Shown: positions 8,112 to 39,970, counted from the stretch's first letter. The stretch: 39,970 nucleotides of DNA from Bacilli bacterium (GCA_017625395.1 JAGALD010000031.1:1-39970), one strand, 5' to 3'. Numbers and translations are program-made. Notes: generated by a model not told the origin, from the letters alone.

Positions 8112-8155
8112 TATTAATGATTCATAAACCACCACCTTTCAATGCTATAAAAATT

Positions 8156-9195: not shown

Positions 9196-9216
9196 TAATC
9201 CTCCTTCTATAGCAAT

Positions 9217-12598: not shown

Positions 12599-12613
12599 AT
12601 TCATTTCCTTTCA

Positions 12614-14477: not shown

Positions 14478-14909
14478 TTATTCCCCCTTTATTGTATTTA
14501 AAATATAGTTTAATATTGTATCTTTTGAAGTTATAATTTTATATTTAATATAGTTATTTTTTATATTAAGCTCTTCAGTGAGCAAAACTTCAATAATTAC
14601 TTTCTTCAATATATTATTTCCATATTCAATATTTGCTTCATCAATAGATATTATTTTGTAAGAAAATGTGGTCCTTTCTATAATAATTTTATTGCTATTT
14701 GTTACTTTATTTAAATCATTAATATCTATTAATATACTTATTTCATTATCTTTTTCTAATACACCATACCCACTATAGTAATTATAAAATTCATTATTAA
14801 ATACAATTATTAAACTCAATACAATTATAAAAATTGCAACTACTATCATACTTTTAAAAATACTTATTTCTTTATTATTAAAATTATTTTGATAAGATTC
14901 TATTTTCAT
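14478..14909 (-). CDS. Bacteriocin export accessory membrane protein
   Basis: Protein of 143 residues with one transmembrane helix (about 20-41) and an external domain of roughly 100 residues, mostly predicted beta strands. ATG 14907-14909 has GGAG seven bases upstream and lies 26 bases inside the exporter gene. It resembles, in topology and position, shortened HlyD-like accessory factors that act with C39 ABC exporters, but lacks the long coiled coil of full-length ones. Similarity to a named family is not established by eye; an immunity role is the main alternative. Confidence 0.55.
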   Translation of the reverse strand: MKIESYQNNFNNKEISIFKSMIVVAIFIIVLSLIIVFNNEFYNYYSGYGVLEKDNEISILIDINDLNKVTNSNKIIIERTTFSYKIISIDEANIEYGNNILKKVIIEVLLTEELNIKNNYIKYKIITSKDTILNYILNTIKGE

Positions 14910-16962: not shown

Positions 16963-17021
16963 CTTATCACCTCCTCAATATCATTATTAAACATAGAAAT
17001 TTATATTCCTAAATTTTTACA

Positions 17022-17052
17022 TAAAAAAACAAATTAGTTGAACTAATTTGTT
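17022..17052 (-). terminator. Intrinsic terminator of the serine hydrolase gene
   Basis: Arms AACAAATTAGTT (17028-17039) and AACTAATTTGTT (17041-17052) form a long stem followed on the minus strand by seven T. It separates the hydrolase from the bacteriocin operon. Confidence 0.85.
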
Positions 17053-17065
17053 AATATACAAGAAC

Positions 17066-19918: not shown

Positions 19919-19934
19919 TATTATCACCATTATA

Positions 19935-20037: not shown

Positions 20038-20111
20038 TGGAGGGCCTAGTCGGATTTGAACCAACGCTCGGGGAGTTGCAGTCCCATGCCTTACCACTTG
20101 GCTATAGACCC
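20038..20111 (-). tRNA. tRNA-Cys (anticodon GCA), CCA encoded
   Basis: Read on the minus strand, the acceptor arm GGGTCTA pairs with TAGGCCC (one G-T pair), the discriminator base is T as usual for Cys, and CCA is encoded (20040-20038). The D arm GCC/GGC, T arm GTTGG/CCGAC with loop TTCAAAT, and anticodon loop CTGCAAC are all present. The 27-43 pair is a T-C mismatch. Body is 71 bases, normal for tRNA-Cys. Its 3' end faces the mobile element, as expected for an integration target. Confidence 0.95.
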
Positions 20112-24606: not shown

Positions 24607-25104
24607 CTACTCTACTATATATTTATTTTCTTTAAGTAATTCTATTAAATTTTCTTTTGAAGTATAACCTCTTTTAAATAATTTAATTTCTTTTTCTTTT
24701 ACTAATAACAGTGTTGGAGTACCTATTCCATCATTAGTAAATGATTCCGAACTATCATATAACATCTTTAAATCAGAATCTGCTAGTTTGTTTAAGTTTA
24801 TATAATTTGCTATTATATCATATTCGTTATAAAGTTCTTGAAATACTAAATCTTGTGCTTCTGAATAAGGACAAGTATCAGATCCTATGTATATTAGTGA
24901 TAGTTTGTTTCCAGATAATAGTGATAGATAATCATTAACAGTAATACTTTTTATGTTTGATTTCTTTTCCTCTTTATTACAACTATCACATTTATTTTTG
25001 TAATATGATAACTCTGATGATACAAAGGAACCACCAAATACAATAATACAAACTAAAGCTATGATTATTCCTGTTTTTAATTTTTCTTTAGCACTTTTAT
25101 CCAT
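24607..25104 (-). CDS. Membrane-tethered thioredoxin-like protein (CPYS)
   Basis: Protein of 165 residues with a transmembrane anchor (about 12-30) and an outside thioredoxin-like domain. The active-site position reads Cys78-Pro-Tyr-Ser in IGSDTCPYSEA, so it is monothiol, and the cis-Pro loop is GTPTLLLV. A second motif Cys39-Asp-Ser-Cys42 sits between the anchor and the domain and could supply the missing dithiol. Similar proteins appear as bacteriocin-accessory thioredoxins. Here a role in folding the Cys-rich exported proteins of the neighbouring secretion locus is plausible (inference). GGAGGAG precedes ATG 25102-25104. Confidence 0.72.
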   Translation of the reverse strand: MDKSAKEKLKTGIIIALVCIIVFGGSFVSSELSYYKNKCDSCNKEEKKSNIKSITVNDYLSLLSGNKLSLIYIGSDTCPYSEAQDLVFQELYNEYDIIANYINLNKLADSDLKMLYDSSESFTNDGIGTPTLLLVKEKEIKLFKRGYTSKENLIELLKENKYIVE

Positions 25105-25124: not shown

Positions 25125-25757
25125 TTATAACACGTCATTTATTAAATCATCTATTAGTTTTAATAGTTTTTCAAATATATCATTAATAAAATTCATAATC
25201 ACTTTGAATACATTTTCTTCTTCTTTTGGTTCTTCTACTTTAGGTATGTTTGGTTCTATTTCTTGTTCTTCATTAATCTCTTTCCAAACTCCCTTATTTT
25301 CTTCTTTTGCTTTAGCTTCAGCATTCAATAAAACATCATTATATAAATAATCGTCATATATGAATGCAACTTTTGCATATCCAAGTTCTACTAAATGTTC
25401 TTGGAGAAGAACATCGTCAACATATACCCATGCTAAAATTCTTCCATATTTATCTTCTTTTTCACTGTTTGGTTCATATTCAATTTTAATTTCTTTAGCA
25501 TTTGTTAAAATACTACATACATAGTCATTAACAAGACTTCCATTAATTTCATCATTATATTCTGACATAATAGTTGGAACTGATTCTGTTGCAATAAATT
25601 TAACTTTTATTTCTTTATTGTTTAACATGAATCTAGCAGAGTTTCCATCAACACATGTACTAAGATTAACTATATCATGTTCTATCTCTGTTGCGTTAAC
25701 ATTGTATGTCGATAATATAGTGCAAATTAATGTTAAAAACATAAATACTTTCTTCAT
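25125..25757 (-). CDS. Secreted staphylococcal-nuclease-fold protein, probably catalytically altered
   Basis: Exported protein of 210 residues: signal peptide (1-22), an SNase domain (about 25-157), an acidic Pro/Glu linker and a C-terminal amphipathic helix (183-210). The fold is recognisable from VDGNSARFML, DKYGRILAWVYVDD and LVELGYAKVAF. Compared with micrococcal nuclease, Asp21 aligns to Asn39, Arg35 to Lys53, Asp40 to Glu58 and Glu43 to Pro61; only Arg87 (Arg106 in YGR) is kept. It is therefore likely an inactive or altered nuclease, maybe a DNA-binding or structural subunit. The start is ATG 25755-25757, six bases after GAGG. It lies directly downstream of VirD4. Confidence 0.8.
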   Translation of the reverse strand: MKKVFMFLTLICTILSTYNVNATEIEHDIVNLSTCVDGNSARFMLNNKEIKVKFIATESVPTIMSEYNDEINGSLVNDYVCSILTNAKEIKIEYEPNSEKEDKYGRILAWVYVDDVLLQEHLVELGYAKVAFIYDDYLYNDVLLNAEAKAKEENKGVWKEINEEQEIEPNIPKVEEPKEEENVFKVIMNFINDIFEKLLKLIDDLINDVL

Positions 25758-25772
25758 AATTAACCTCATATC

Positions 25773-25795
25773 AAAAAATTGCTAAAAAGCAATTT
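25773..25795 (-). terminator. Terminator at the end of the virD4 gene
   Basis: AAATTGC (25795-25789), loop TTTTTA, GCAATTT (25782-25776), then T-run. It starts at the stop codon and is probably leaky, because no clear promoter precedes the nuclease-fold gene. Confidence 0.75.
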
Positions 25796-28500
25796 TAATC
25801 TTCAAAAAAATCATCAAAGAACTTATCATCATCGCTTACATCTTCTAATCTGATTGTAGGAGTTGGCTTAAACATTTTTGGTGGTGTTGTATCAGTAGAA
25901 GTAGATGGTTTATTATTTGCTGCATTATTGTTTGCAGCTTGTTCTTTTAATCTTTTATCTAATGATGAAATCATTGATTGTTGCTCATACTCCTTATTAT
26001 AGTATTTGTCTAAATCATTTTCATTATTTATATTTGTATTAATATTTGCCTTATATTTCTCATTTTGATCAACTGTACTATAAGTTTTTGTATATATGTA
26101 GTCATCATTTCTTTTAGGAGTATGTTCAGATAAAGTATGTTGTTGATTTGTATCCTTAGATAAATTTTTCTTTTCACTGTTATTTTTATTTTCTATTGGC
26201 ATTAGTAAATCAATACCACTTTCTAATTCAAATAAAGCATCATCTGCCATTTTACTATTCACTTTATTTTCAATTTCAATAGTTGAAATTGTATCTTTTA
26301 AATTATGTTTAGTTGTTATTGGCTTTATATCACTATCATCTAGAATTTCAATTTCTGTTTCATTTGTAAATTTTGATTTTGTATTTTCTTGTTTTTTATT
26401 ATTATCAATTACTGGTGTTTCTTTTTCTTTTAATGTACTATATTCATTAATTTGATAATTATCAATTTTCTTTGTTGAAGGTTTTGAACTTTCTATTTTA
26501 TGTTCTAGAGTTGGTTTAGAATCATTTTCTTCTGGTAATTTTGTTTCTAGCATTTTAGACTCTATTTTCTTTTTCTTTTGTTCTTGTTCTTCTCTTTCAA
26601 TTTGAGCAAGCTTTTCATCTATTTTCTTGACTAAGTCATTTACTGATAAGTCAGGTGTTTTCTTTGGTTTATCTGGTGAAGCTGAACTTGGTTTATTTAA
26701 TCCAAATGGATTACTTGCCATTGTTTCTCCACCATTACTAGTTGAAGAGGTTCCACCCATACTTGCCATCATTTCGTTAATCTTTTGATTTTTCTTATTC
26801 TTTACAAATTCTCTTATGTCAAAAATTTGAACTTCCTTTTTTTCACGAGTTGGGTATCCAACCTTAGATGATACACAATTTCCCCAGTCTATTTTAAAGT
26901 CTGGTACAAATGAAGTTTTAAATGGACTTTTTCTCAAACGTAGAATTATTTGGTCAAATTGTTTCATTCTTTGTAAGTCACTTACTGTTGCAAGTGGTGT
27001 TGACGCAGTTTTTGCGTCTTTTTTAGATTTCTTTTCACCACATAATTTACTTATTTCTTCAAGTGCTGCAAGTTCTGTAGAAATAAGATAAATTATATTA
27101 CCACAGTTTCCCTTAATTGTTTCTGCATCATCTTTACCATATACTTTATTTAATTGGGCAAAGTTTTGGATAATCATTGTAAATCTAATTTGTCTTGAAC
27201 GTGCTGCTGTTATCATTGTTGTAACATCTTTTAATGGTGGCATGTTTGCAAACTCATCTAGTAAGAAGTTTGTTCTACAAGGTAATTTTCCACCATGTTG
27301 TTGGGCAACATCAATTAGTGTTTCATATACTTGCTTAATAAATATTGTTGCAAGTGAGTGATATGTCTTCTTTTCATCTTGAATTATTATAAATACTGCT
27401 GTTGGTTGTTTACCAATTGATTCAAGTTCGAAATCACTATAACTTAACATTTCTGATAGGTTTTCACGTGAAGCAAATAATTTTACTTTTTGCTTAAATA
27501 CAGAAATAATTCCACCTTTTGTTTCACTAGGTGCCATAACTGTTCCACTTGCGTTAACATAGGAGGCACTACTTGGCTCTTTATAATTAAAATATTCTTT
27601 TATATATGTTGAACCACCAAATTTATCTTCACCAACAGTTGCAGTCATGTTAATACTGTTTATATTAATTTTGTCTTCTGTTGTATCTTCAAACATAGCA
27701 AGTGCAATACCTGCAAAGTAGTCTGCTGCTGTTTTTTCCCAGAACGGATCTGAGTTAGCTGAACTTTCATCATACAAAATATTTAATGCTAAGTCATCAA
27801 GTAACTCTATTGCTTTATCTTGGTTTCCGTTTTTATATAGTTTATATGGTAAAGATAGTGGATTCCATGCATTACCATTTTGAGGATTACGGAAATTTAA
27901 AAGAATTATATTATATCCTCTTTGTTTTAATAAACCACCTGTTTTTTCATATATTTCACCTTTTGGGTCGGTACAAATAATAGATTCATGTTTTTTTGCT
28001 AAAATCTTAACAGTTGGAAGAATAGTATTAACTGTTTTACCTGATCCAGTAGCACCTATTACTAGGTTGTGATATTCCCCATTATCAACCCAAAGCTCTT
28101 TTCCATTACTTATTAATGGAATTCCTGCATATTCTGAATCTTGGTCAGATGCAATAACTTTCTTTATTGTACCATCTGTTTTTATTTCTTTTGGTTTTGC
28201 CCAATCACTATATCCACCACTTTTTCCAGAATCTAGACTAAATCCTACACCAGATTCAAATTCAAAGAAATATGAACTAACACTGAAAAATAGTCCTCCT
28301 AATGCTGCAGCATAAAAAACTAATGTTGTTACTATATGATCACTTGAAAATGCTGCAATTGGATTTAATCCATAAAAATGTCCTTCAGTAGCTAATAAAG
28401 GTATATTTAAAACACCTAAACATACAACATATAGCAAAAAAACTGCAAAAATCAAAAAAATTATAACATCTTTAGAAGATGCAACTATTTTTAGTTTCAT
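25795..28500 (-). CDS. virD4: VirD4/TraG-type coupling ATPase with long disordered tail
   Basis: Type IV coupling protein of 901 residues that would bring substrates to the channel. Two N-terminal transmembrane segments (about 13-35 and 56-77) precede the ATPase. Walker A is VIGATGSGKTVNT near 147-159 and Walker B FLLDEFANMPP near 415, with the TraG-type phrases SIICTDPKGEIYEKT and MIIQNFAQLNKVYG. From about residue 565 the protein is low-complexity (Ser/Lys/Asn/Glu) and ends in a very acidic DDDKFFDDFFED. The tail, over 330 residues, may bind substrates or partners. It is closer to conjugative VirD4 than to FtsK, yet no relaxase gene is near. Confidence 0.93.
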   Translation of the reverse strand: MKLKIVASSKDVIIFLIFAVFLLYVVCLGVLNIPLLATEGHFYGLNPIAAFSSDHIVTTLVFYAAALGGLFFSVSSYFFEFESGVGFSLDSGKSGGYSDWAKPKEIKTDGTIKKVIASDQDSEYAGIPLISNGKELWVDNGEYHNLVIGATGSGKTVNTILPTVKILAKKHESIICTDPKGEIYEKTGGLLKQRGYNIILLNFRNPQNGNAWNPLSLPYKLYKNGNQDKAIELLDDLALNILYDESSANSDPFWEKTAADYFAGIALAMFEDTTEDKININSINMTATVGEDKFGGSTYIKEYFNYKEPSSASYVNASGTVMAPSETKGGIISVFKQKVKLFASRENLSEMLSYSDFELESIGKQPTAVFIIIQDEKKTYHSLATIFIKQVYETLIDVAQQHGGKLPCRTNFLLDEFANMPPLKDVTTMITAARSRQIRFTMIIQNFAQLNKVYGKDDAETIKGNCGNIIYLISTELAALEEISKLCGEKKSKKDAKTASTPLATVSDLQRMKQFDQIILRLRKSPFKTSFVPDFKIDWGNCVSSKVGYPTREKKEVQIFDIREFVKNKKNQKINEMMASMGGTSSTSNGGETMASNPFGLNKPSSASPDKPKKTPDLSVNDLVKKIDEKLAQIEREEQEQKKKKIESKMLETKLPEENDSKPTLEHKIESSKPSTKKIDNYQINEYSTLKEKETPVIDNNKKQENTKSKFTNETEIEILDDSDIKPITTKHNLKDTISTIEIENKVNSKMADDALFELESGIDLLMPIENKNNSEKKNLSKDTNQQHTLSEHTPKRNDDYIYTKTYSTVDQNEKYKANINTNINNENDLDKYYNKEYEQQSMISSLDKRLKEQAANNNAANNKPSTSTDTTPPKMFKPTPTIRLEDVSDDDKFFDDFFED

Positions 28501-28540
28501 GAAAGTTCACATCCTTAACTATAATTAATAATATCTAATG

Positions 28541-28560
28541 ATAATTATATCATAATAATA
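28541..28560 (-). promoter_or_regulatory. Extended -10 promoter of the virD4 gene
   Basis: Minus-strand TATGATATAAT, with the TATAAT at 28549-28544. The full 20-base block is identical to the one at 32277-32296 upstream of the SpoIID-domain gene. The -35 is poor. Confidence 0.65.
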
Positions 28561-28592
28561 ATAAATATTTATCAAATATTTTTAAAAGTTAT

Positions 28593-29360
28593 TTAAACTT
28601 TGTCAGCTACTTTTACTCTAAAATATATTTTATATCCAACAATAGTCATAAGTAAAATTATTAATATCAAAATAATATAAGCAATATATTCTGGAATATA
28701 TTCTTTTTCTTCATTTAAATTTAATTCGAGTACAATAGTTTTTCCTTTTCTAGTACTGTTTTTATCAATATTCCATTTAAGTACTCCGTTAATGTTACTA
28801 TCTGCATTTGTCTTAAGTATTTCATAATTTGTTTTTATCGTAATATTTACATTTTCTAGATTTTCATATCTTGAAAAGACATTCCATTCTGGAGTGGCAT
28901 AAATAGATAAAATATTATTCTCTTTATGTTCTATTGATAAATTTGTTAAGTAATAATCTAGAATAGATGAATCTTTGTATTTATCAATATCAAATGTATA
29001 TGAAAGTTTTACCCCCAATTCAGTACTAGATGATATTTTTTCACTTTTATAAGTTGGATCTATCAATTGTTCCTTGTATTTTACTTTCTCTTGATCATCA
29101 TAAGTACTTTCTTCTTCTGGGTCATCACCACCATAAATTAAGTAACTATAAATTTTAGGAGGTTTCTCATAATATATATCAATTAATTCTTCATATGTAA
29201 GGCCACCTAAATCGTTTTTCCAAGATGATATATCCTTATTTATAACAGAAAAAGATTCTGTTGCTTTACCATCTTTAATTTCTACTTCGTAATTAGCAGT
29301 ACAGCCTGTAAACAACAAAAATAAAGATAATATTAAAACTTTAATTTTATTATTTAGCAT
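28593..29360 (-). CDS. LppM-like lipoprotein with C-terminal membrane helix
   Basis: Lipoprotein of 255 residues. Signal peptide with lipobox LFTGC (Cys20), an external domain, and a C-terminal transmembrane segment (about 224-246) with a basic end. The opening CTANYEVEIKDGKATESFSV and the later VNITIKTNYE and VLKWNIDKNS follow the pattern of LppM/DUF3153-type domains, as far as I can judge by eye. Double anchoring places it on the outer face of the membrane. It lies 10 bases after the SpoIID-domain gene and 90 before VirD4, so it is probably an accessory of the secretion channel. Confidence 0.65.
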   Translation of the reverse strand: MLNNKIKVLILSLFLLFTGCTANYEVEIKDGKATESFSVINKDISSWKNDLGGLTYEELIDIYYEKPPKIYSYLIYGGDDPEEESTYDDQEKVKYKEQLIDPTYKSEKISSSTELGVKLSYTFDIDKYKDSSILDYYLTNLSIEHKENNILSIYATPEWNVFSRYENLENVNITIKTNYEILKTNADSNINGVLKWNIDKNSTRKGKTIVLELNLNEEKEYIPEYIAYIILILIILLMTIVGYKIYFRVKVADKV

Positions 29361-29370
29361 AATTCACCAC

Positions 29371-32241
29371 CTAATATAAATCATTTACATTTCCTGAATT
29401 TGCGTAGTAATCATCTAAAAAGTTAATTCGATATCTTGTTTTACCGTCTGTAAAAGAACTGAAAGCAATTTTTCTTGTCTTTCTACCATTTTCTGCAATG
29501 TAGTATCCCGAATCATCTTTTCCTATAATTACCATTGCGTGATCTGCATCTCCTGTTGCTATGGAATCTGTGTTCATTGTGTCTCCTGGTTCTCCTAGTC
29601 TTATTAATTCGTCTGTACTCATCGTGCCAATTCTTGGATCATCGCCAGTAACATTTCTTCCACTAAATTCAACATATGTTTTTTCCGGATAATATCTGTT
29701 ACTTGTCATTGAATATGCTCCAGCTGAGCCTTTAGAGCACAAATCCATTCCTCCATTACAGAAAGACCAGCGAACAAAATTTGCACAATTTAGCCCAAAA
29801 CGACAAGGTTCATTATCACACGTACCTCCAAGTTTTCCCCATCTAGTATTTACTCCAAGTTTTCCTGCTATATCTGTATTAAAATTAGCATAGTTTCCTT
29901 CTACTTTTCCACCAGTATGGTCATACGGAAGAGTGTATCCACCAGTCATTTGGTATAGGCAGTCAATTAATCCATATGCTGCTTCTACTACTCCAGCACG
30001 TGTTCCAGGACCAGCAGCTACAACACGAGTTTCAACACATTGATTTAAGCAATCAACGCTGTACCCTTTTTTAGTTAATACATCTTCGATTGGTTCTTCA
30101 AATGCTTTACCGTTAATTATTTCTGTATGATTTGAATCAGTTACTTCAAAGCTTAATCCACAAGCTTGTGCTGTTACTGCCTTGATACTACTTGTGTTTT
30201 GGCATTGACCAATTTCTAATGATGATCTTAATCTTCTTACTGTTGCACCTTGTCCATAGAACATTTTAATTAGAGATTCCCAATCATATTCGAATGCACC
30301 AAAGTATTTTAGACCATATTGGCTTGCACCACGACCATGTCCTCCACTTGCTTTGTATGTTAAATCATCTTTCCAACATGAAGAATCAACTGTAGGGTCT
30401 GGGTATGTTGGACGACTATCTTTATTTTGATAACATGGACATGTTAAGTATTTTTCTGGAATAGTAAATTCTTTCCCTGTTTTTTCTGCATAAGCATCTG
30501 GATTTACTGGAAGTTTATTTTGTCCATCAGGCAAATAATAAAAACCATTTTCTAATTTATTTGTAACTGGGCAGAAAGCATCATATTCTGTTGATCTTAC
30601 TTTTTCACTTCCATAGTTTGTTACCACTAATCCTCTTGTCTCTTCAACTGCTTTTGCAATATGTGGATACTTTTCTGGTGAATAATTTGGATTATAGTTT
30701 TGATTATTAGAACTATTTTCAATAATTCCTTCTCCATCGACACCTACAACCGAAATTCCATAACTTCTTGCTAAAATAGCAAATGCTTTTAGTGATTCAT
30801 GGTTACCACTATTATATTCTGCAAGCATAACACCACCGATATATTGGTCTTCAAATGGTATTTCATCATATCCATCATCATTTTTATGTTTTACTTTAAT
30901 ATTTTCAATTGTACTTTCTACTACTTGATAGTTATAGCAATCTTTTCTAATTGATTCATAATATGAGTATATATAATTTCCTATTTCTAAAATCTTTGAT
31001 AAATTTTGTTCATAATTTTGATCATCATTAATATTTTCATCAATATTTAAATAATCCTTCATATAAACATGGATAAATCCACCTTTATTAACTAAATTCC
31101 AGAAATATACTCCACCAGTATTAGGATCTTTAACATATGTTCTTTCCATATTTTCATTAATACTGTTATAGTATACGCCTTGGTCTTTTGAAATGACATA
31201 AATTGTTGGAATTGTTGACTTACCAAGTGGGACATCATATATACACTTTGCATTTAGTTCTGCTTCTGCTACATCTCTAAATCCTTTAAACCAGTTAACA
31301 GGATTAAACAATGCCCAAAAATTAAACTCATTTACTTCTAGGTCATTCATAGCATATTGCTCCATTGTATCTTCATCGCCACATTTTGGTTTAACTTTTG
31401 AATCCTTATTTACATAAGTCATAATTTGAGCTTTAGCAAGGTATTCTGATTGATCTCCCCATAATTCAAGGAATTCTTCCCAAGTATAAGATTTGCCATC
31501 TAAATAGTAACATTCTTCTTCTGAACAACTACCATCATCAACAGGCATTATATTACCATTTTCTATTGGTGCTATTAAAGTTGCTAATATTAAATATTTA
31601 TCAACTTCTAATTTATATTTACTGCTAATTTTTTGTACTGACTTTTCAACTTTTTCATATAAACCTGGATACTTTGCAAAGACACTAGCATCTCCATAAT
31701 CTTCATAATTTTCATCTACTTTTCCATCATTTTGATTACTATATATTTGTGTATCTGCATTTTTAAAAATTAAAAGGAATATAATACAAAGAAATAATAT
31801 TGGTCCCATAATACTAACAATAGTTAAAATCATTGTTTTCTTTTTTTGTTCTTCTTTAAGTTTTTTTCCTACGTTAATAAGTCCTTCTGTATTTGTCGGA
31901 GCTTTTGCATATTCATCAAGAAGTTCTTCACCTTTTTCCGTTTTTAAAGCTTTATCTGCTATTTCACCTGTCCCTGGAACAACCGCATTTAGACCTGTTC
32001 TAATAGCATGTCTTGCTGCTTCTTTCTTTGCTCTCATTTTAATTTCATCTATTTTTGATGCAACAGCATTTTTATTTTGGTTTAAATTTCTAGCATATGC
32101 ATTGTTATTTTGTGGATTGTAATTATTTACTGTTTTATAATTGTTTCTATTAGCTGTAGAAGTCTGTCTTTTATTTCTTACATTATTGTTTCCTTCTGTT
32201 CTATTAAAACTTCTACCTGTATTGTTTGCTGAATTATTCAA
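29371..32241 (-). CDS. T4SS cell-wall enzyme with SpoIID and NlpC/P60-like domains
   Basis: Protein of 956 residues from TTG 32239-32241, which follows GGTGGTG by five bases. The N-terminal 130 residues are cytoplasmic and Asn-rich with a KEAARHAIRTGLNAVVPGTG helix. One transmembrane segment follows (about 134-158). Outside comes a SpoIID/LytB domain: GGVMLAEYNSGNHESLKAFA keeps the Glu of the lytic transglycosylase motif, and GHGRGASQYG closes it. The end is an NlpC/P60- or CHAP-like peptidase (Cys in LNCANFVRWSF, His in DADHAMVII). It could cut both glycan and peptide, replacing VirB1. Many Cys suggest disulfides. An earlier in-frame TTG at 32274 lies at the presumed transcription start. Confidence 0.85.
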   Translation of the reverse strand: MNNSANNTGRSFNRTEGNNNVRNKRQTSTANRNNYKTVNNYNPQNNNAYARNLNQNKNAVASKIDEIKMRAKKEAARHAIRTGLNAVVPGTGEIADKALKTEKGEELLDEYAKAPTNTEGLINVGKKLKEEQKKKTMILTIVSIMGPILFLCIIFLLIFKNADTQIYSNQNDGKVDENYEDYGDASVFAKYPGLYEKVEKSVQKISSKYKLEVDKYLILATLIAPIENGNIMPVDDGSCSEEECYYLDGKSYTWEEFLELWGDQSEYLAKAQIMTYVNKDSKVKPKCGDEDTMEQYAMNDLEVNEFNFWALFNPVNWFKGFRDVAEAELNAKCIYDVPLGKSTIPTIYVISKDQGVYYNSINENMERTYVKDPNTGGVYFWNLVNKGGFIHVYMKDYLNIDENINDDQNYEQNLSKILEIGNYIYSYYESIRKDCYNYQVVESTIENIKVKHKNDDGYDEIPFEDQYIGGVMLAEYNSGNHESLKAFAILARSYGISVVGVDGEGIIENSSNNQNYNPNYSPEKYPHIAKAVEETRGLVVTNYGSEKVRSTEYDAFCPVTNKLENGFYYLPDGQNKLPVNPDAYAEKTGKEFTIPEKYLTCPCYQNKDSRPTYPDPTVDSSCWKDDLTYKASGGHGRGASQYGLKYFGAFEYDWESLIKMFYGQGATVRRLRSSLEIGQCQNTSSIKAVTAQACGLSFEVTDSNHTEIINGKAFEEPIEDVLTKKGYSVDCLNQCVETRVVAAGPGTRAGVVEAAYGLIDCLYQMTGGYTLPYDHTGGKVEGNYANFNTDIAGKLGVNTRWGKLGGTCDNEPCRFGLNCANFVRWSFCNGGMDLCSKGSAGAYSMTSNRYYPEKTYVEFSGRNVTGDDPRIGTMSTDELIRLGEPGDTMNTDSIATGDADHAMVIIGKDDSGYYIAENGRKTRKIAFSSFTDGKTRYRINFLDDYYANSGNVNDLY

Positions 32242-32276
32242 AGTATCACCACCAAAAACTACATAATTATTCAAGT

Positions 32277-32296
32277 ATAATTATATCATAATAATA
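32277..32296 (-). promoter_or_regulatory. Extended -10 promoter of the SpoIID-domain gene
   Basis: Minus-strand TATGATATAAT (TATAAT at 32285-32280). Start near 32273 leaves a leader of about 30 bases before the TTG at 32241. Twenty bases are identical to the virD4 promoter. Confidence 0.65.
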
Positions 32297-32310
32297 CTTT
32301 ATCCAAAACA

Positions 32311-32340
32311 AAAAAAAAGAAATATAAGAATTTCTTTTTT
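32311..32340 (-). terminator. Terminator after the VirB4 ATPase gene
   Basis: AAAGAAAT (32337-32330), six-base loop, ATTTCTTT (32323-32316), then T-run. It begins within two bases of the stop codon region. Confidence 0.75.
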
Positions 32341-34132
32341 ATAGTCCTCCACCACTACCAAATGATGATAATTCTTCAGGTGTTACAACAACATTTATTC
32401 GCATACGTCTATTACCACAAACGAACAAAGCTTCACCTTGAGAATATTGTTTAATGCTTTCTTTTTCATTGTCATTCAAGTCAATAAGTAAACTTAAATC
32501 TTCTGTGGCTTGTTTCTTTAATCCCATTATTAGATAGTATGACGCGTTATCAAATATTGCTTTACCTTGAGTAATAACAGCAGGTGTTGCAAAGTCACTT
32601 GGTTGTTGTGTAATTATTATTGTTCCCGTGTTATATTTTCTTGCACGTCTTTGAACTTGAGCTAAGAAGTCAGCTCCAAGAGTATTGTTATCACCAAGGA
32701 TTACGTGGGCTTCATCAACCATTAGGATTGTATCTACTTCTTTATCAAGACATAATCCCCAAGCATATTTTAATATGTTAAAGAATAAAGCATTTTTAAT
32801 ATTTTCTTCTGCATTCATAAGTTCTTTTATATTAAATGTTATAAAATCACTTTCATGAGTTATAGTTGTATGACCATCAAAATAGTATTTTAAATCTTTT
32901 GTAAGGGGTCTTACTTTTAATTCAAGACGTTCCATAATATCTCTTTCATGAGTATGGTCTGTCATTGAAAGTAGTATTGCTTTAATAGTTTCATAAACAT
33001 CAGAGAAAGTTGGATAATCTTGTGCTGTAAAGTTATAGAAGTCTTTATCAAAATCGATTCCAAAACGTTTATATGTATCTTGTACTACTTCACTGAATAA
33101 TGTTAAAACATCTTCTTCAATTGATGGATCATAATATTTCATAAAGGCTTTTAAGAATTGAAGTGTACGAGTTAATACTGTATAACCAAGACCTTGTCTT
33201 ATTTCTTCTTCATCAGCATCTATTACTATTTGAAGTGGATTAATCATACCGTATTCTCCACCTTTACCTAAGTCAATACTATCTCCACCAAATGTTTTAG
33301 TCATTTCTTCAAGTTCGTTTTCTGGGTCAATTGCAACGATTTGACAACCATTTCTGATATGATTTCTTAATAAAAGTTTTGCTGCAGTAGATTTACCACT
33401 ACCTGAAGTTCCTAATAAAATTAAGTTAGCATTATTTCTATTATTTTCTTTTTTAATCTTATATAAGAATTGATTAAATAGAATTACTCCACCTGAGAAA
33501 TCTACTCCAAGAAGTGCTGAATATCCAGGGTCTTTGATACTATCAAAAATAAATGGATACATAGCTGCAATTGTAACAGATGGAATTGGAGTTCCTATTC
33601 TATCTTCTATATCTTGTTTTGGGAAAATTGGAATTATTGATTTTAGAGCTTTTTCTTGCTCAAATCTTAATGCTACCCCTCTCATTCCCATAGCATCTAA
33701 GTAGTTTTTAACATTTGTTTTCTTTAATTCTAATCCTTCTTTTGTATCATCACTTATCATTATGTGCATTTGGAAATCAAATATTTTTGCTTGAGTTCCA
33801 GCAAGCATTGTAACAAAAGACTCTAGAGATTCATAGTCAAGACGAATTCTTTCTTGCATTGTTCTATCACGTTCGTCTTGGTATTTAGCTTTCAATTCTA
33901 CTATTTGTTTATTAAGCATTTTAGATATTACTGAAAATGGTACTGGAATATGTTTAATAACTATTTTTATTCCTGACATATTAGTAAGTCCAGAAAGGTA
34001 TCCCGGATTAATAAATTTTGGAAATGCAACTACAGTTAAGATTGTAGAATATTTATCACTTATAAAAAATTCACTTGGATAAAATTGCAATCCTTTAGGA
34101 GCTAATTGTGATTTTAAATTCATTGAACTCAT
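32339..34132 (-). CDS. virB4: VirB4 ATPase, C-terminal part of a split VirB4
   Basis: Protein of 597 residues with the motor domain: Walker A LLGTSGSGKSTA near 239-250, Walker B TILMVDEAHVIL, and the TIIITQQPSDF stretch typical of VirB4/TraC. The first 200 residues still contain part of the VirB4 N-terminal region (MHIMISDDTKEGLELKK). Its ATG overlaps the stop of the preceding gene as ATGA. With that 185-residue partner the total is 782, close to the single 820-residue VirB4 of the element at 3143-5605, so the split lies inside the N-terminal domain. It powers the chromosomal secretion channel. The 3' end is marked by a terminator. Confidence 0.9.
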   Translation of the reverse strand: MSSMNLKSQLAPKGLQFYPSEFFISDKYSTILTVVAFPKFINPGYLSGLTNMSGIKIVIKHIPVPFSVISKMLNKQIVELKAKYQDERDRTMQERIRLDYESLESFVTMLAGTQAKIFDFQMHIMISDDTKEGLELKKTNVKNYLDAMGMRGVALRFEQEKALKSIIPIFPKQDIEDRIGTPIPSVTIAAMYPFIFDSIKDPGYSALLGVDFSGGVILFNQFLYKIKKENNRNNANLILLGTSGSGKSTAAKLLLRNHIRNGCQIVAIDPENELEEMTKTFGGDSIDLGKGGEYGMINPLQIVIDADEEEIRQGLGYTVLTRTLQFLKAFMKYYDPSIEEDVLTLFSEVVQDTYKRFGIDFDKDFYNFTAQDYPTFSDVYETIKAILLSMTDHTHERDIMERLELKVRPLTKDLKYYFDGHTTITHESDFITFNIKELMNAEENIKNALFFNILKYAWGLCLDKEVDTILMVDEAHVILGDNNTLGADFLAQVQRRARKYNTGTIIITQQPSDFATPAVITQGKAIFDNASYYLIMGLKKQATEDLSLLIDLNDNEKESIKQYSQGEALFVCGNRRMRINVVVTPEELSSFGSGGGL

Positions 34133-34686
34133 TCAGTAGTCACCACCGTTCCAAATTCTGTTGATCTTCCTCCATTTAGGAAATTATCAAGAATAATTCT
34201 CAAATCTTCATTAGATGTTTGCTTTGCAGAAAGTCCTGCAGTAGCAAGTGCATTTATTAACATACGAATTTTCTTTTGAATCTTTTCAACATCTCTTTCT
34301 TTAAATAGGATATAGTATTCAGTATCAACAACATTGTTGTTCATAAACATATTACCTTTACTAATATCTTCAGCAATTAATTTTCTAATTGCAGGAGATG
34401 ATTCTTGGTTATATAAAAGCTGTAGTTGTGACATATATACTGATATATCAACTGGTCTATCGGCAACTACTAACCAAAATTCAAAATCTATTTGATTATA
34501 CATATTTCTTAAATTAACTAAAACTGATTGTTGTGATTCATAATCAAGGATGAAAATATTTTTTGGAGATATTTTTATTCCAGTTACTTTTTCTTGATTA
34601 TTTAAAACTATCATTCCACCAGTTATTGATTGAACTGGTATCCAATCTTCTGTAAATCTACTATTTACGCTTGTACTCTTCGCCAT
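34129..34686 (-). CDS. VirB4 N-terminal domain as a separate protein
   Basis: Protein of 185 residues, soluble, no P-loop. SRFTEDWIPVQSITGGMIVL with KISPKNIFILDYESQQ corresponds to the beginning of VirB4/TraC proteins ('..i.dg.i...dg.y..vi.v...nf.lls..eq'). It overlaps the PrgI gene by 26 bases and the ATPase gene by 4, so all three are translated together. Because the two halves overlap as a clean ATGA with intact reading frames, this looks like a stable gene split and not a sequencing frameshift. It presumably forms the membrane-facing part of the ATPase complex. Confidence 0.8.
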   Translation of the reverse strand: MAKSTSVNSRFTEDWIPVQSITGGMIVLNNQEKVTGIKISPKNIFILDYESQQSVLVNLRNMYNQIDFEFWLVVADRPVDISVYMSQLQLLYNQESSPAIRKLIAEDISKGNMFMNNNVVDTEYYILFKERDVEKIQKKIRMLINALATAGLSAKQTSNEDLRIILDNFLNGGRSTEFGTVVTTE

Positions 34687-34990
34687 ATTTCATACACCAA
34701 CCTCTCCAATAATATCGTTGTCTATTTACAAAGTAGAAATTATATATTGCTCCCAGCAATACCAGTATATTATGCTGATATGGTATTGGAACAACTAAGA
34801 ATATTGAGATAAATCCAGGTAATAATATTAATATTAATACTGGAATGCTATCCATTGAACTATTAAAAATCAAAAGTAAAATTAAAGATATAGACATACC
34901 AATTGCAAAGATAATTAAATCTATTGGTCTAAAATATCCTAATATTAATTTACCTCTATTTGAGTTAGCAGGTATTAAATATTCATTCAC
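34661..34990 (-). CDS. PrgI/VirB3-like membrane protein of the chromosomal T4SS
   Basis: Protein of 109 residues with two neighbouring hydrophobic segments (about 24-43 and 47-68) and a C-terminus ending YYWRGWCMKYGEEYKRK, the layout of PrgI-family proteins. The start is GTG 34988-34990; an ATG three bases later is out of frame. GGAGTGTGAT lies upstream. It precedes the VirB4 pair as PrgI normally does. Confidence 0.8.
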   Translation of the reverse strand: MNEYLIPANSNRGKLILGYFRPIDLIIFAIGMSISLILLLIFNSSMDSIPVLILILLPGFISIFLVVPIPYQHNILVLLGAIYNFYFVNRQRYYWRGWCMKYGEEYKRK

Positions 34991-35014
34991 TATATATCAC
35001 ACTCCAAATCTATT

Positions 35015-36901
35015 CTATGGATTATTGTTGTTATTATTATTGTTATTTTGCCTATTTTGTCTATGTTGATCTCTTGCATTAATTGCAGCATTTAAAGACT
35101 GTTGTTTATCGTTAACAACTTGTTGGTGATTTGTTCCCTTATATGGATCGTAAATTCCGCGATGTGCATTGTTATCAGTTCGTTCTGCAGTATGTAGTTC
35201 TCTTCTTGCATCTCTAATCTTATCTCTATCTGAAACTTCTTGGTCAAAAGCGTCTGTGCTTCCATAGATAACTCTTCCTACACCTCTTCTTACAGCTGAA
35301 TGCCTACGTCTATTAGCATACATATCTTGAATTGATGTTCTTCCAGTAACTCCCATAGCTTCTCTTGCTTTTTTTCCTTTGTCTGCATTTTTTCTTGCTT
35401 CTTTTGCAGCACTTGTAGCATTATCCGCATTTGTTCTTAATTGTGCTAATGCATTTCCTGTTACACCACTATGAAGTGCTTCTTGATATTCTCTTTCAGC
35501 ATTTTCAGCTATCGATTCAAGGGATGAGGCATACTTATCTGCTGCATTAACATTTGCTTCTGATAGTCCTAATCTATTTGCAGTTCTATTTAAATTCCAA
35601 CGACCTAATGTATTAGCAAATCCACCCTTCCAGTTTTTATCACCAGTTCTAAGTTGTCCTGCTTTATCACGTCCTGCAGCATATCCTCCAACTTTTGGAT
35701 CTGCTGTTGCTCCTGCTACTGCACCAGTCACTGCACCAGATAATCCACGTCCTGCAATAAGACCTCCAAGTGCTCCTGCTGCTGCACCAAATCCTGTTCC
35801 CATTCCAGCACCACTATCTTTAATTCCAAGTGAATCTTTAATGAATTTTGGAGCTTCTTTAGCAAAGAATATTAGTCCTAATATTAAGAATACAATTAAA
35901 TATGCAGCTCTTAAAGGTTGTTCAGTAAATTCAGGGAAATTTGTAAACAATCCTTTTGAAACAATTAATTGAATCATCATTAAGACAACATATAATATTC
36001 CTAATTTTATAAATATATCTAAGAATGTACTTATAAGCATACTTAACCATTTACCAAATGTTCCATCTTTTGTTTTAGATTTTGGATCTATTAATGTCAT
36101 TATAGGTATTGGTGCTACAATTTGAAGAATTATCATTTTAAATACCCTTTTTGCGATATCTATTGAAATTCCTAATAGCATAACAACCATAAGTATTCCT
36201 ACAATTGTAGATACTCCCCATAAATAACTATATAAATAATATTTTGTAGCCCCTATTCCTACAATACCTGTTCCTTTAGCATTACAAGTTAAATTAACAT
36301 TACTTGTAAAATCACCAATGGACGTAATTGCAGGTGTTTTTTCAAGTGTACCCGTTCCACAAATATCATCTAATTCTTCCGGTGGTATAAAAAACGCTTG
36401 AAGTGTTGACAAAGCCATTACATTAGCAGCATCATCAATACTATTAGAATTATTAGGATTTCCTACAGTTAATCCACTATTTTCATTTACTCCCAATAAA
36501 ATTCTAGGTAACATTGGTAAAAATGCATTCTGTGCTCTATTAATAAGCCCTCTACCTTCACCATTGTTAAATAGTATTGTAGGTAAAATTACTAATGCAG
36601 CAAGCATTACTCCAGCACTCATAAGTAGCTTTGGAACTGATTTGTCACTTTTTCCTACCATTGAATCTGGATCTAGTATATACCCAAAGAACGAAAAACA
36701 TAATTTAAATGCCATAAAGACACCTAAAATAACGTATATACGCGAATAAATTCCGTTTAAAACATCTGAACTTGTTGTTAAATTTGCTAAATCAAAAATA
36801 CCGTATAAAATCCAATTTATTAACCCATAAACCATACTATCTAACGCAGAAAATATGGATCTAAGTATATCTATTATCCAACTTTGTTGTTGAGCACCCA
36901 T
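35015..36901 (-). CDS. VirB6/TrbL-like channel protein with long Asn-tailed cytoplasmic domain
   Basis: Protein of 628 residues. Hydrophobic segments near 25-45, 53-75, 90-110, 225-250, 255-275, 290-315 and 330-350 form the membrane part; an external loop (about 115-220) contains two Cys. A Gly/Ala-rich stretch (about 370-410) leads into a charged, coiled-coil domain of 200 residues that ends in QNNNNNNNNNP. The plan is that of VirB6/TrbL with an enlarged tail. The poly-Asn is encoded by an (TTATTG)-like microsatellite near 35018-35050. The start is ATG 36899-36901, eight bases after GGAG; an upstream GTG overlaps that site. Promoter at 36934-36942. Confidence 0.83.
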   Translation of the reverse strand: MGAQQQSWIIDILRSIFSALDSMVYGLINWILYGIFDLANLTTSSDVLNGIYSRIYVILGVFMAFKLCFSFFGYILDPDSMVGKSDKSVPKLLMSAGVMLAALVILPTILFNNGEGRGLINRAQNAFLPMLPRILLGVNENSGLTVGNPNNSNSIDDAANVMALSTLQAFFIPPEELDDICGTGTLEKTPAITSIGDFTSNVNLTCNAKGTGIVGIGATKYYLYSYLWGVSTIVGILMVVMLLGISIDIAKRVFKMIILQIVAPIPIMTLIDPKSKTKDGTFGKWLSMLISTFLDIFIKLGILYVVLMMIQLIVSKGLFTNFPEFTEQPLRAAYLIVFLILGLIFFAKEAPKFIKDSLGIKDSGAGMGTGFGAAAGALGGLIAGRGLSGAVTGAVAGATADPKVGGYAAGRDKAGQLRTGDKNWKGGFANTLGRWNLNRTANRLGLSEANVNAADKYASSLESIAENAEREYQEALHSGVTGNALAQLRTNADNATSAAKEARKNADKGKKAREAMGVTGRTSIQDMYANRRRHSAVRRGVGRVIYGSTDAFDQEVSDRDKIRDARRELHTAERTDNNAHRGIYDPYKGTNHQQVVNDKQQSLNAAINARDQHRQNRQNNNNNNNNNP

Positions 36902-36933
36902 AAATATCACTCCAAACTAATAATCTATAATAC

Positions 36934-36942
36934 ATTATAGCA
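36934..36942 (-). promoter_or_regulatory. Extended -10 promoter of the virB6-prgI-virB4 unit
   Basis: Minus-strand TGCTATAAT (TATAAT at 36939-36934) directly after the terminator of the preceding gene; the ATG lies about 27 bases from the expected start. No clear -35. Confidence 0.6.
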
Positions 36943-36943
36943 T

Positions 36944-36978
36944 AAAAAAAAATAATAATAAATAAGTTTATTATTATT
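36944..36978 (-). terminator. Terminator of the 36986 gene
   Basis: AATAATAATAAA (36978-36967), loop CTTA, TTTATTATTATT (36962-36951), then T-run. AT-only stem, but long. Confidence 0.7.
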
Positions 36979-36985
36979 AATTTTA

Positions 36986-38179
36986 CTATTCATAGAATTT
37001 TACAACATATGGATCAGCTTCAGTTCCGTTTCCTTTTTCATAGATTGCACGTGAACCTAAAGTTATCATTGGTCTAACATTACTTTTTGATGAGCATAGT
37101 GCTGATTCTACATATTTCTTGGCAACATTATATGCTTCATTTGTTGTTTCACTATTAGTAGTTAATAACCACCAATAATCCTCAAATTGAGAAAGATAAT
37201 TATGATTTCCACAATTTTTTGATGAGATTGTTGTACATTCATCATCAAGACTTGCACTCATATAGTAGTATGCTGGTAATAATCCTACATATTGATTTTC
37301 TAATATTTTTTTACATTCTATAGCACCACTTATATCTGTTTCTGTAGTACTTCTTTTTCCAACACATAAGTTCATAGGTGAAATTAGATAATTAGTTTTA
37401 CTACTATACTTTTCGTTATTGAAAAGGCTTATTTCTCCTTTATAAAAACTTTCTACAGCTTCCATAGCTCTACTTTTTAATCCATTTTGTTCATATTCAT
37501 TTATACCTTGAGTTTTTCCAACTTCTGAATTAAATCTATCATCCCAAGGTAAGGTTTTTTTAGTATGTCCAACATAAATTAATATCATATCATTACTATC
37601 TGTAATAGCAACAATACGCCAATAATTATCATCAATTAAAACATAGTTATTTACTTCTTCTCCTCTAAAAACATATTCAAAAGATTCAGTACTACTTGGA
37701 TTTGAAAGATCTTGTTCATCTAAAATAAATTCTCCATCTACTCTTTGATATAATCCACTACCTGATACAACTCCAAATTCATTATCAATTAATACTTTGT
37801 TATACAATTTAGTTGTTTCATATGCACTACCACAATATAGAGATGGTACATAATTATAATAACTATCATTTGCTAAATAAATATCTACACTACCATTACA
37901 AATAATGTTTTCTTTTCCTACATATGATGATAAATCTTTTATATATCCAGCATTAATTAATGTAGCTGATGAAATTGTGATAGTAGAATCACTAGTACTT
38001 GGAAGTGCTCCAGGGAATTCTTCAATATAATCCATGGTAGCAGTAACTAACTTTTCTTCTATTTCTTCATATGATAATTTAACACCACCAGAAACTAGAT
38101 TCTTTAATAACAATAATATTACTATTAAAGCAATCATTCCAACTAATATACCAACATATTTATACATACTTTTATCCAT
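36986..38179 (-). CDS. Membrane-anchored pilin-like surface protein with WRIV-type domain
   Basis: Protein of 397 residues. A short basic N-terminus and transmembrane segment (about 6-28) are followed by a helix with LSYEEIEEKLVTATMDYIEE and a small domain containing TISSATLINAGYIKDL and a Cys pair, an arrangement like a pseudopilin but without the prepilin cleavage motif. The remainder carries NYWRIVAITDSNDMILIY, a phrase common in surface proteins of uncultured gut Firmicutes (lectin-like fold suspected), and several more Cys. ATG 38177-38179 follows GAGGTG. It is transcribed alone between pilin and VirB6. It may be a minor pilus subunit or surface adhesin (inference). Confidence 0.65.
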   Translation of the reverse strand: MDKSMYKYVGILVGMIALIVILLLLKNLVSGGVKLSYEEIEEKLVTATMDYIEEFPGALPSTSDSTITISSATLINAGYIKDLSSYVGKENIICNGSVDIYLANDSYYNYVPSLYCGSAYETTKLYNKVLIDNEFGVVSGSGLYQRVDGEFILDEQDLSNPSSTESFEYVFRGEEVNNYVLIDDNYWRIVAITDSNDMILIYVGHTKKTLPWDDRFNSEVGKTQGINEYEQNGLKSRAMEAVESFYKGEISLFNNEKYSSKTNYLISPMNLCVGKRSTTETDISGAIECKKILENQYVGLLPAYYYMSASLDDECTTISSKNCGNHNYLSQFEDYWWLLTTNSETTNEAYNVAKKYVESALCSSKSNVRPMITLGSRAIYEKGNGTEADPYVVKFYE

Positions 38180-38201
38180 GTAATCACCTCGTAACAATAT
38201 T

Positions 38202-38230
38202 ATTTTATCAAACTATATAAAAAAGAACAA
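38202..38230 (-). promoter_or_regulatory. Promoter of the 36986-38179 gene
   Basis: TTGTTC (38230-38225), 17-base spacer, extended TGATAAAAT with TAAAAT at 38207-38202. Confidence 0.5.
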
Positions 38231-38231
38231 G

Positions 38232-38254
38232 AAAAAAGGAAGATAAAATCTTCC
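38232..38254 (-). terminator. Terminator of the pilin gene
   Basis: GGAAGAT (38254-38248), loop TTT, ATCTTCC (38244-38238), followed by six T. Strong intrinsic terminator. Confidence 0.88.
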
Positions 38255-38262
38255 CAATCATA

Positions 38263-38586
38263 TTATTGATTTTGCCAACATTGATACCAACTTGATGAAT
38301 CACTATCTGTTGTTACATCAGCTACTAATCCCATTATTACATTAACTAAGAATGGTAATAAGAAAATTACTACTGCAGCTATTGAACGTTTAATAAGTTT
38401 TCCTGTAGCTGCTTTAATTTCCTTATCATCACTTGCTAATACTGCTTTTCCTAAGTCAATACTTCCCATCAGAATTAATGCAATAGGAATCAAAATACAA
38501 ATAATATTAAGAACGTTTTTTATAAGAGCTACAACTGGACCTAAACCTCCACATGCATCTGCCGCTAATATTTGAAACATATCCAT
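38263..38586 (-). CDS. VirB2/TrbC-like pilin of the chromosomal T4SS
   Basis: Protein of 107 residues with two hydrophobic helices (about 18-42 and 66-90). The first is preceded by AADACGGLGPVVALIK, the loop reads SIDLGKAVLASDDKEIKAA, and the end carries a second Cys (WYQCW). The DLGKAV.ASD.KE phrase marks a VirB2-like family I know from low-GC gut bacteria. It would form the pilus or channel lining. The start is ATG 38584-38586, eight bases after GGAGG; an ATG seven codons earlier lies before the ribosome-binding site. It is transcribed alone from a strong promoter, as suits an abundant subunit. Confidence 0.78.
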   Translation of the reverse strand: MDMFQILAADACGGLGPVVALIKNVLNIICILIPIALILMGSIDLGKAVLASDDKEIKAATGKLIKRSIAAVVIFLLPFLVNVIMGLVADVTTDSDSSSWYQCWQNQ

Positions 38587-38613
38587 ATATAATTCCTCCA
38601 AACTCATAATAAA

Positions 38614-38642
38614 ATAATACTATAATATAATTTCTTTGTCAA
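38614..38642 (-). promoter_or_regulatory. Strong promoter of the pilin gene
   Basis: Perfect TTGACA (38642-38637), 17-base spacer, TATTAT (38619-38614). The best sigma-A-type promoter in the window. Confidence 0.8.
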
Positions 38643-38744: not shown

Positions 38745-39698
38745 TTATCTAATCATCCCTAGTTTCTTTAATAGACCATCGATAACATCTGATAATTCAC
38801 GATCATTTAGTGGCGGAATTACATAAAAAATATTAATACCTGCCTCTGCAGCAAAATCTTTAAGATCATGATCATTTAATACTGCTCTATTAATAACAAC
38901 TTTTTTATTTCTTAATTTTTGAAAAATCATTTTATCTCTTGTCATCAATCTATTAAGTTTAATTACAGATGGTTCTACTAAGTAAAGTGTTTCATCACAA
39001 ACATTTTCATCATAATCATTTAAATCAACAAGTACATAGTTAAAGTTTTTAGCTTTTAACATTTCTGTTGCTATTGAGGTTTTATCAGTTGAAACCATGT
39101 TTTTTTCCCTTAGGAAAACAAAATCTCTTTTATCAACTTCTAACCCAAGAACAGATAAACCGTACTTTTCTTCTAGTTCTTTTTTTATCATATAAATAAG
39201 TGATGTAGCACCTGCGCCATCAGTAACATTTTTTATTCCTAGTGTTCTAATACCACTATAGAAAACTTGAGGCTCATCATTTCTAGTATTAGTAGGTGCT
39301 GCTGGAAGTCCTGGTTGTTCTAATTGATGTAGATGTGCAACATCTTTATATGTATTAGGTGTATTTAATAAATACATTATTCCATCTGCGTTAGTAGTAA
39401 AGTTATAATATCCCATAGATATTAACTTTGATAAGAAATAATTATTTGCTACTGTCGATGATGGCGGAATAAGCAAAATAAGTTTATCTATTGGAAGACC
39501 TATAGATAACTTTTGATATGTAATAACATCGTCAAAATTTTCTAATGCTGTTACATCCACTATCATTCTAGCAAAAAAGAAATTAGTAAAAGTACTAATA
39601 AGTTCATCTGCGCTAAAAGTACCACGAAGTGTCTTAATTATTTCAATATTTAATGTTGAAACAACACTTTCTTGTTGATTAACAACTAATACATTCAT
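38745..39698 (-). CDS. CpaE/TadZ-like protein with degenerate P-loop
   Basis: Cytoplasmic protein of 317 residues. The N-terminal 115 residues look like a receiver-type domain, a Pro-rich linker follows (near 128-140), and the rest is a MinD-like domain: LGIKNVTDGAGATSLIYM takes the place of the deviant Walker A, without either signature Lys. The strand NYVLVDLNDYDE and the end NIFYVIPPLNDRELSDVIDG match CpaE/TadZ proteins, which place Tad pilus machinery in the cell. The upstream partial gene looks TadE-like, supporting a Tad locus continuing outside the window. It precedes the VirB2 pilin gene by about 160 bases. Confidence 0.72.
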   Translation of the reverse strand: MNVLVVNQQESVVSTLNIEIIKTLRGTFSADELISTFTNFFFARMIVDVTALENFDDVITYQKLSIGLPIDKLILLIPPSSTVANNYFLSKLISMGYYNFTTNADGIMYLLNTPNTYKDVAHLHQLEQPGLPAAPTNTRNDEPQVFYSGIRTLGIKNVTDGAGATSLIYMIKKELEEKYGLSVLGLEVDKRDFVFLREKNMVSTDKTSIATEMLKAKNFNYVLVDLNDYDENVCDETLYLVEPSVIKLNRLMTRDKMIFQKLRNKKVVINRAVLNDHDLKDFAAEAGINIFYVIPPLNDRELSDVIDGLLKKLGMIR

Positions 39699-39736: not shown

Positions 39737-39970
39737 TTATGCTGGAGCACCATTAACGATACAAGTACTTGTAGCAAATGGATCTTCATTAGAATTAACT
39801 AGCGTACCTGTTTCGATTAATCTAGTCTCCCCTTTAATTGTTACATCTATTTTTAATTTTAAAAATGAGAATGTAGCATATAATTCGATGTAATAATAAG
39901 CGCCTTTATTTTCAGAAGAATATTTACATACTTTGTATCCTCTTTTTGGATTGTATCCGTGACTTGCTAA
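39737..39970 (-). CDS. C-terminal end of a secreted TadE-like protein (5' part outside window)
   Basis: The last 77 residues of a gene running in from the right edge; stop TAA at 39739-39737. The segment alternates beta-strand phrases (GAYYYIELYATFSFLKLKID, then VTIKGETRLIETGTL) and ends TSTCIVNGAPA. Two Cys suggest an outside location. The strand pattern and the CpaE-like gene 38 bases downstream make a TadE/TadF-type minor pilin plausible, but only the tail is visible. Confidence 0.5.
   Translation of the reverse strand, partial: LASHGYNPKRGYKVCKYSSENKGAYYYIELYATFSFLKLKIDVTIKGETRLIETGTLVNSNEDPFATSTCIVNGAPA

Follow-up and report, generated by a model that had tools for sequence, protein, structure and literature searches.

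The window analysed here is a stretch of 39,970 nucleotides from a Bacilli bacterium (GCA_017625395.1, JAGALD010000031.1:1-39970), a whole contig of a 1.49 Mb draft genome, with a G+C content of ~25%. Between positions 25795 and 38607 it carries a block of type IV secretion system (T4SS) genes; those named in an initial annotation of the window are all present and co-oriented on the minus strand. The relatives carry names such as uncultured Bacilli, Candidatus Onthousia and Scybalousia and are placed by NCBI in Bacilli incertae sedis; judging from genome size, host and these names, their order of uncultured gut Bacilli is most likely RF39, which is reported from a substantial fraction of human gut metagenomes, is uncultured and has many auxotrophies (PMC6784871). 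We compared the 80 relative loci nearest in sequence ("loci" below) and an order-wide set of 146 genomes. The genes of the block, in contig order, are the following.

25795..28500, minus strand: VirD4-type coupling ATPase, 901 aa (Pfam PF02534, T4SS-DNA_transf, 1.2e-61; NCBIfam NF045973, 296 bits, cut-off 250)
25804..25821, minus strand: DNA encoding the FFDDFF tail motif of VirD4 (sequence pattern)
28593..29360, minus strand: membrane lipoprotein, family unassigned (lipobox-like N terminus and C-terminal membrane helix in the sequence)
29371..32274, minus strand: SpoIID and NlpC/P60-like membrane-anchored wall hydrolase (PF08486, 1.4e-8, over cut-off)
32339..34132, minus strand: C-terminal half of VirB4, motor ATPase, 597 aa (PDB 4ag5, VirB4-like, 4.5e-57; NF045975 profile positions 294-891)
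34129..34686, minus strand: N-terminal half of VirB4, 185 aa (NF045975 profile positions 98-276, 1.5e-16)
34661..34990, minus strand: PrgI/VirB3-like membrane protein (the order's profile matches PrgI-position proteins of mobile-type loci at 1e-5 or better)
35015..36910, minus strand: VirB6-like polytopic protein (NF045890, 1.1e-9, and TrbL_4, 3e-4, both under cut-off)
36986..38197, minus strand: g403, with an N-terminal membrane helix and a cysteine-rich outer domain (conserved Cys columns in the alignment)
38263..38607, minus strand: VirB2-like pilin (PF18895, T4SS_pilin, 2.8e-7, over cut-off)

The block has both ATPases of Firmicutes systems of the mating-pair-formation (MPF) classes FA and FATA: a VirD4 coupling protein above the NF045973 cut-off and a VirB4-family motor, whose NF045975 score falls below the curated cut-off because the gene is split. 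The two VirB4 half-genes overlap by 4 bases, and since the split is kept in ~80 loci, a frameshift could be ruled out as its origin. ATPase motifs are intact in the block sequences. The PrgI-like protein matches no curated family model, and the order's VirB6 profile matches the VirB6 of mobile-type loci. In the wall hydrolase the NlpC/P60 part is visible only as a Cys/His pattern, with one relative at this position matching NLPC_P60, and the catalytic modules vary by genus, with matches to SpoIID, M23, C39_2, NlpC/P60, M15 or phage lysozyme. The lipoprotein had been called LppM-like; a lipoprotein it is, but the likeness to LppM is unproven, as a Pfam search of 28593-29360 returned no match. 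It has relatives in ~24 of the 80 loci, and other loci carry a 258-aa protein in its place. Relatives of g403 occur in 55 of the 80 loci, after VirD4 in other genera as opposed to between pilin and VirB6 here, and the VirB2-like pilin genes number 1 to 3 per locus.

The T4SS block is a resident, vertically inherited, core chromosomal trait of the order and not a mobile element. Orthologues of the C-terminal VirB4 half (VirB4C; 64-100% identity) are found in 126 of the 146 genomes, one per genome. Across 25 genomes the VirB4C distances follow those of RpoB (Mantel r 0.89, p 0.0001) at a nearly equal rate (mean p-distance 0.29 against 0.27), and the order's VirB4Cs form one clade against mobile-type VirB4s (support 98/99). 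Searches of 72,556 plasmids and 50,697 phages gave no VirB4 copy of >60% identity, and IMG/VR gave no close one. The block is present in 10 of the 12 genomes of the genus, with the same VirD4-thermonuclease-thioredoxin-PH-HolA flank where contigs allow; the remaining two lack orthologues of both VirB4C and CpaF, the ATPase of the pilus unit described below. Between genera the flanks vary. Given the 126 carriers and the RpoB-like distances, neither the patchy spread nor the tree conflict of mobile systems is seen, and the initial annotation was right to regard the system as resident.

No relaxase was found in the 80 loci by a search, made over loci rather than whole genomes, that does find MobP3-type relaxases in comparators: each of seven mobile-type T4SS loci from the class or the order (L110, L112-L114, L121-L123) carries one, with a weak match in L113. 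Among relatives none lies in the block or within 20 kb beyond it, so the block departs from MPF-FA/FATA systems, which hold a relaxase within the element. A relaxase just past the contig end is excluded by relatives (L104-L107) in which a Tad pilus unit, and no relaxase or integrase, occupies the DNA corresponding to that beyond 39970; the earlier claim of a relaxase-free block thus stands. The window itself does contain a PF03432 relaxase (3-1073), in a separate element resembling an integrative and conjugative element (ICE) across tRNA-Cys from the block. This element (window 3-13237) comprises the relaxase, an M23 peptidase, an unsplit VirB4 of its own (820 aa, 3143-5605), SSB, a sortase and a 933-aa TED/SpaA adhesin.

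The initial annotation had treated the block as complete at 38607, which does not hold: the contig runs on into a second, Tad-type unit and stops inside it, and relatives have the whole unit. The features around this boundary are the following.

38237..38255, minus strand: terminator-like hairpin directly 3' of the pilin gene (sequence scan of the region; found in this genus)
38614..38642, minus strand: sigma-70-type promoter TTGACA-17-TATTAT at the Tad/T4SS boundary (best of 104 matches in the region)
38745..39698, minus strand: CpaE/TadZ-like protein with a receiver-like N domain and a MinD/ParA-fold C domain, degenerate Walker A (alignment; structure model)
39737..39970, minus strand: TadE-like pseudopilin, truncated where the contig ends (56 of 80 loci have a relative between TadC/Flp and CpaE)

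The model of the CpaE-like protein (pLDDT 81) has two domains and matches ParA/MinD chains (Z 15) and PDB 3fkq, as expected of a Tad pilus TadZ/CpaE, and an uncut TadE-like copy is seen at L107:1703-2212. Where loci extend far enough, the gene order of the unit is large secreted protein, DUF5411, CpaB/RcpC-like, CpaF, TadB-like, TadC-like, Flp-like, TadE-like and CpaE-like. The CpaF ATPase of relatives (the window has none) matches T2SSE (1.6e-25) and, in the PDB, CpaF (5e-16) and VirB11 (2e-17), VirB11 scoring as well as CpaF; the RcpC/CpaB-like protein scores 43 bits with TIGR03177 (2.4e-11, cut-off 71) and has a SAF domain over cut-off. At the Flp position 55 loci encode small hydrophobic proteins without a Pfam match. 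The secreted protein at the start of the unit (~760-1520 aa; L107:9049-13206, L125, L127, L132, L133, L142), whose relatedness is recognisable only between close genera, is perhaps a partner-facing adhesin.

Promoter-like matches over the whole region are no more numerous than chance would give, and we relied on the conservation test alone. Of 55 loci, 54 have the pattern TTGAC-N15-19-TAnnnT in the gap that separates CpaE from the first pilin gene (chance expectation 0.5), and nine other gaps with sufficient sequence for the test have none. Given this conserved boundary promoter, the Tad and T4SS genes are probably transcribed separately, with the pilin gene first in the T4SS transcript. Of the multi-promoter layout first proposed, the separate pilin promoter survives and the many promoters do not, since one is conserved. 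The hairpin, seldom found outside this genus (9 of 57 loci in all; ~0 in shuffles), would raise the pilin above the other block genes.

A co-oriented Tad unit lies directly upstream of the T4SS genes in 54 of the 58 relative loci that reach far enough, all taken from the 80 nearest in sequence. Across the order, 111 of 146 genomes have both machines and 11 have neither (Fisher p 4e-5, uncorrected for kinship), and 47 of 55 same-contig pairs lie within 15 kb. The other pairs are farther apart, and the closed genome G141 retains Tad, VirB6-VirB4 and SpoIID-VirD4 in three distant loci; the linkage is therefore common but not obligatory. At L133 and L134 a Tad unit with VirB2 is kept where no VirB4C was found. 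G068 and G079, both draft genomes, may have lost VirB4 while keeping Tad and VirD4. Distant pairings in L108 and on plasmid CP074574.1 suggest that the Tad-T4SS pairing arises repeatedly. Beside the distant Tad-T4SS locus (L108:14239-18977 and L220:105-1490), six mostly unrelated neighbouring proteins share a C-terminal motif like [DE]FCxVTxE[DE]V...ER, a candidate T4SS export signal.

VirD4 itself has a long variable linker followed by an invariant C-terminal FFDDFF tail, which the initial annotation had overlooked. All 85 complete VirD4s of the order (a few genomes possibly represented twice) end in [FY][FY]DDFF and a few residues, the 100 residues before the tail share 11%, and none of five mobile-type VirD4s has the tail. 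Across 36 genomes, FFDDFF in other proteins was sought and rejected: the readable in-frame DNA matches are only VirD4 tails, the others being out of frame. The F-plasmid coupling protein TraD docks the relaxosome protein TraM through its C terminus, and we infer that the FFDDFF tail docks a substrate or an adaptor.

How might these parts work together? We think it somewhat more probable than otherwise that this order of gut Bacilli has, as a core trait, a resident apparatus for contact-dependent export, of which the block encodes the secretion half. The block would descend from monoderm (MPF-FATA-like) conjugation machinery that lost its relaxase. Attachment to a partner would be the task of the Tad pilus, encoded directly upstream or elsewhere, and the wall hydrolase would open the peptidoglycan. 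Channel and motor would consist of VirB6, PrgI and the two-piece VirB4, with plentiful VirB2 pilin supplied from the pilin gene's own promoter; substrates would reach the channel through VirD4, whose tail would dock either the substrates or an adaptor. The lack of a DNA-transfer enzyme of its own, together with the frequent adjoining adhesive-pilus machine, suggests that the machine acts on neighbouring cells rather than in the spread of DNA. Export upon contact, after pilus attachment, is favoured because the system retains both export ATPases, a channel protein and wall hydrolases whose modules can be exchanged, and because its surface-facing parts change rapidly whereas the motor is constant. 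The direction of transport and the nature of the substrates are our inference: on this best reading the Tad and T4SS machines would cooperate, the cargo would be mostly protein and the target another cell. The stronger proposal, that Tad and T4SS are one composite machine, coordinated through CpaE and the VirD4 tail, with which the cell holds on to neighbouring bacteria or host cells and exploits them, we regard as doubtful.

Several observations weigh against contact-dependent export. The initial annotation had pointed to effectors with a shared C-terminal signal, and a scan that does find such a signal in the distant locus L108 found no effector, adaptor or shared signal in the genes neighbouring the block. 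Fifteen genomes have VirB4C without a CpaF orthologue and nine have CpaF without VirB4C, so the two machines may work apart; the window's own genome lacks CpaF too, probably owing to the contig end. Eight of the same-contig pairs are >15 kb apart, and 56 further pairs lie on different contigs, where distance cannot be judged. The TadB/TadC-like proteins have no Pfam match and owe their identity to a weak fold match (best PDB matches of the TadC-like model SpoIIIAB, EpsF and OutF, E 0.2-1), a profile comparison of TadC-like with a T2SSF protein giving no match. Nearly all the data come from draft genomes of uncultured organisms. Finally, a search of 23 genus and family genomes finds PF03432 relaxases in 6-8 of them, depending on the cut-off, with three relaxases in the window's own genome.

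These last relaxases bear on the most durable of the alternatives, that the block still exports DNA and mobilises relaxase-bearing elements or chromosomal DNA in trans. Its VirD4 belongs to the conjugal CD1115 family and MobP3-bearing ICE-like elements are present in other genomes of the order (L121-L123), but PF03432 is missing from most carriers, PF02486 and PF03389 were found in none of the 23 genomes, and the ICE-like elements supply their own VirB4 and, in L121-L123, VirD4. Such service would also leave the RpoB-like, order-wide conservation unexplained, and we consider this reading unlikely.

Next comes uptake, in which the Tad pilus would capture DNA or other molecules and the T4SS would admit them; uptake is proposed for the Patescibacteria machine, and H. 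pylori ComB is a known example. In its favour, the order has extensive auxotrophies (PMC6784871), the block in this genus adjoins a gene for a secreted nuclease, and a review suggests molecule uptake by the Patescibacteria machine (PMC12857230). Against this, VirD4 and VirB4 are export-type ATPases and the nuclease is linked in one genus only. DNA uptake, which the initial annotation had allowed, is also made less likely by ComEC (34 of 39 relatives) and, in most relatives, a separate PilB-like ATPase; on balance uptake is improbable. Behind it, and improbable as well, stands a machine that only builds surface attachment pili and moves no substrate. It would account for the presence of one to three pilin genes of VirB2 type, with a promoter dedicated to the first, and for Tad loci that keep VirB2 where VirB4C was not found (L133, L134), yet VirD4, dispensable for pilus building in known systems, is conserved with its invariant tail, and the locus also has a wall hydrolase and the VirB6 channel. 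A recently acquired mobile element, for which a neighbouring ICE in the window and flanks that change from genus to genus might speak, is excluded as a recent insertion, and very improbable in any form, given the shared genus flank, order-wide presence, RpoB-tracking VirB4 and relaxase-free locus.

Two further genes lie beyond VirD4 on its holA side.

24607..25104, minus strand: membrane-anchored thioredoxin/TraF-like protein, a genus-specific neighbour (PF13728, 2e-5, over cut-off)
25125..25769, minus strand: secreted thermonuclease-like protein (NF047694, 4.5e-17, under cut-off; block linkage confined to this genus)

The block had been described as next to holA and tRNA-Cys; holA does belong to the shared flank, and tRNA-Cys (20038-20111) lies 5.7 kb off, beyond holA. 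Elsewhere in the window (14884-19930), a C39-peptidase ABC exporter adjoins a Big_2-repeat protein with a beta-lactamase-like domain.

The closest known system, compared through published descriptions, is the relaxase-less, VirB2-bearing T4SS of Patescibacteria, which is chromosomal, mostly lacks a relaxase, has VirB2-like pilins and is essential in Southlakia epibionticum (PMC12102498, PMC10633639, PMC12857230). Both systems are monoderm, chromosomal, widespread and mostly relaxase-free, with an MPF-FATA-like VirB4 and PF18895 VirB2 pilins, in organisms whose genomes are reduced and auxotrophic and whose cells also have a distinct type IV pilus machine. The block differs in belonging to Bacillota, in its two-piece VirB4, in the Tad unit directly upstream in many genomes and, compared with Southlakia, which has no recognised coupling protein (PMC10633639), in a VirD4 with a unique tail. 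With the ICE and plasmid systems of Firmicutes MPF-FA/FATA (CD1115 and Mbov_0397 families) it shares VirB4, VirD4, PrgI-like and VirB6-like proteins and a modular wall hydrolase; unlike them it has a relaxase-free locus, vertical inheritance, a VirB2 pilin, the VirD4 tail and Tad linkage. The Tad unit has, in order, the CpaF-type ATPase and the CpaB/RcpC-like, TadB/C-like, TadE-like and CpaE/TadZ-like proteins of known Tad (Flp) machines, whereas it is joined to a T4SS and its Flp and TadB/C are too divergent for Pfam. A Tad and T4SS pairing elsewhere in the class is found on plasmid CP074574.1 of the cold-seep Mycoplasmatota bacterium zrk4 (L109, L219; L219, 2876-45207), which carries VirB4 (600 aa), VirB2 and PrgI, then SAF, CpaE-like, CpaF and T2SSF, plus VirD4; it differs in being plasmid-borne and typed non-mobilizable, in its reversed unit order and in a VirB4 that is 29% identical.

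A 2025 review names Patescibacteria as the sole Gram-positive-type exception with VirB2 pilins in a T4SS, and their T4SS as the first found essential for the cell itself (PMC12857230); in the literature searched we found no link between this order and a T4SS or Tad pilus. With the block, a resident T4SS that bears pilins and lacks a relaxase would be known for a second time, and from a different phylum. The composite machine, if true, would be a Bacillota parallel to the T4SS of epibiotic Patescibacteria in an abundant gut order with reduced genomes. The block offers a concrete candidate for how such gut bacteria make contact with partners, and a short motif for substrate docking.

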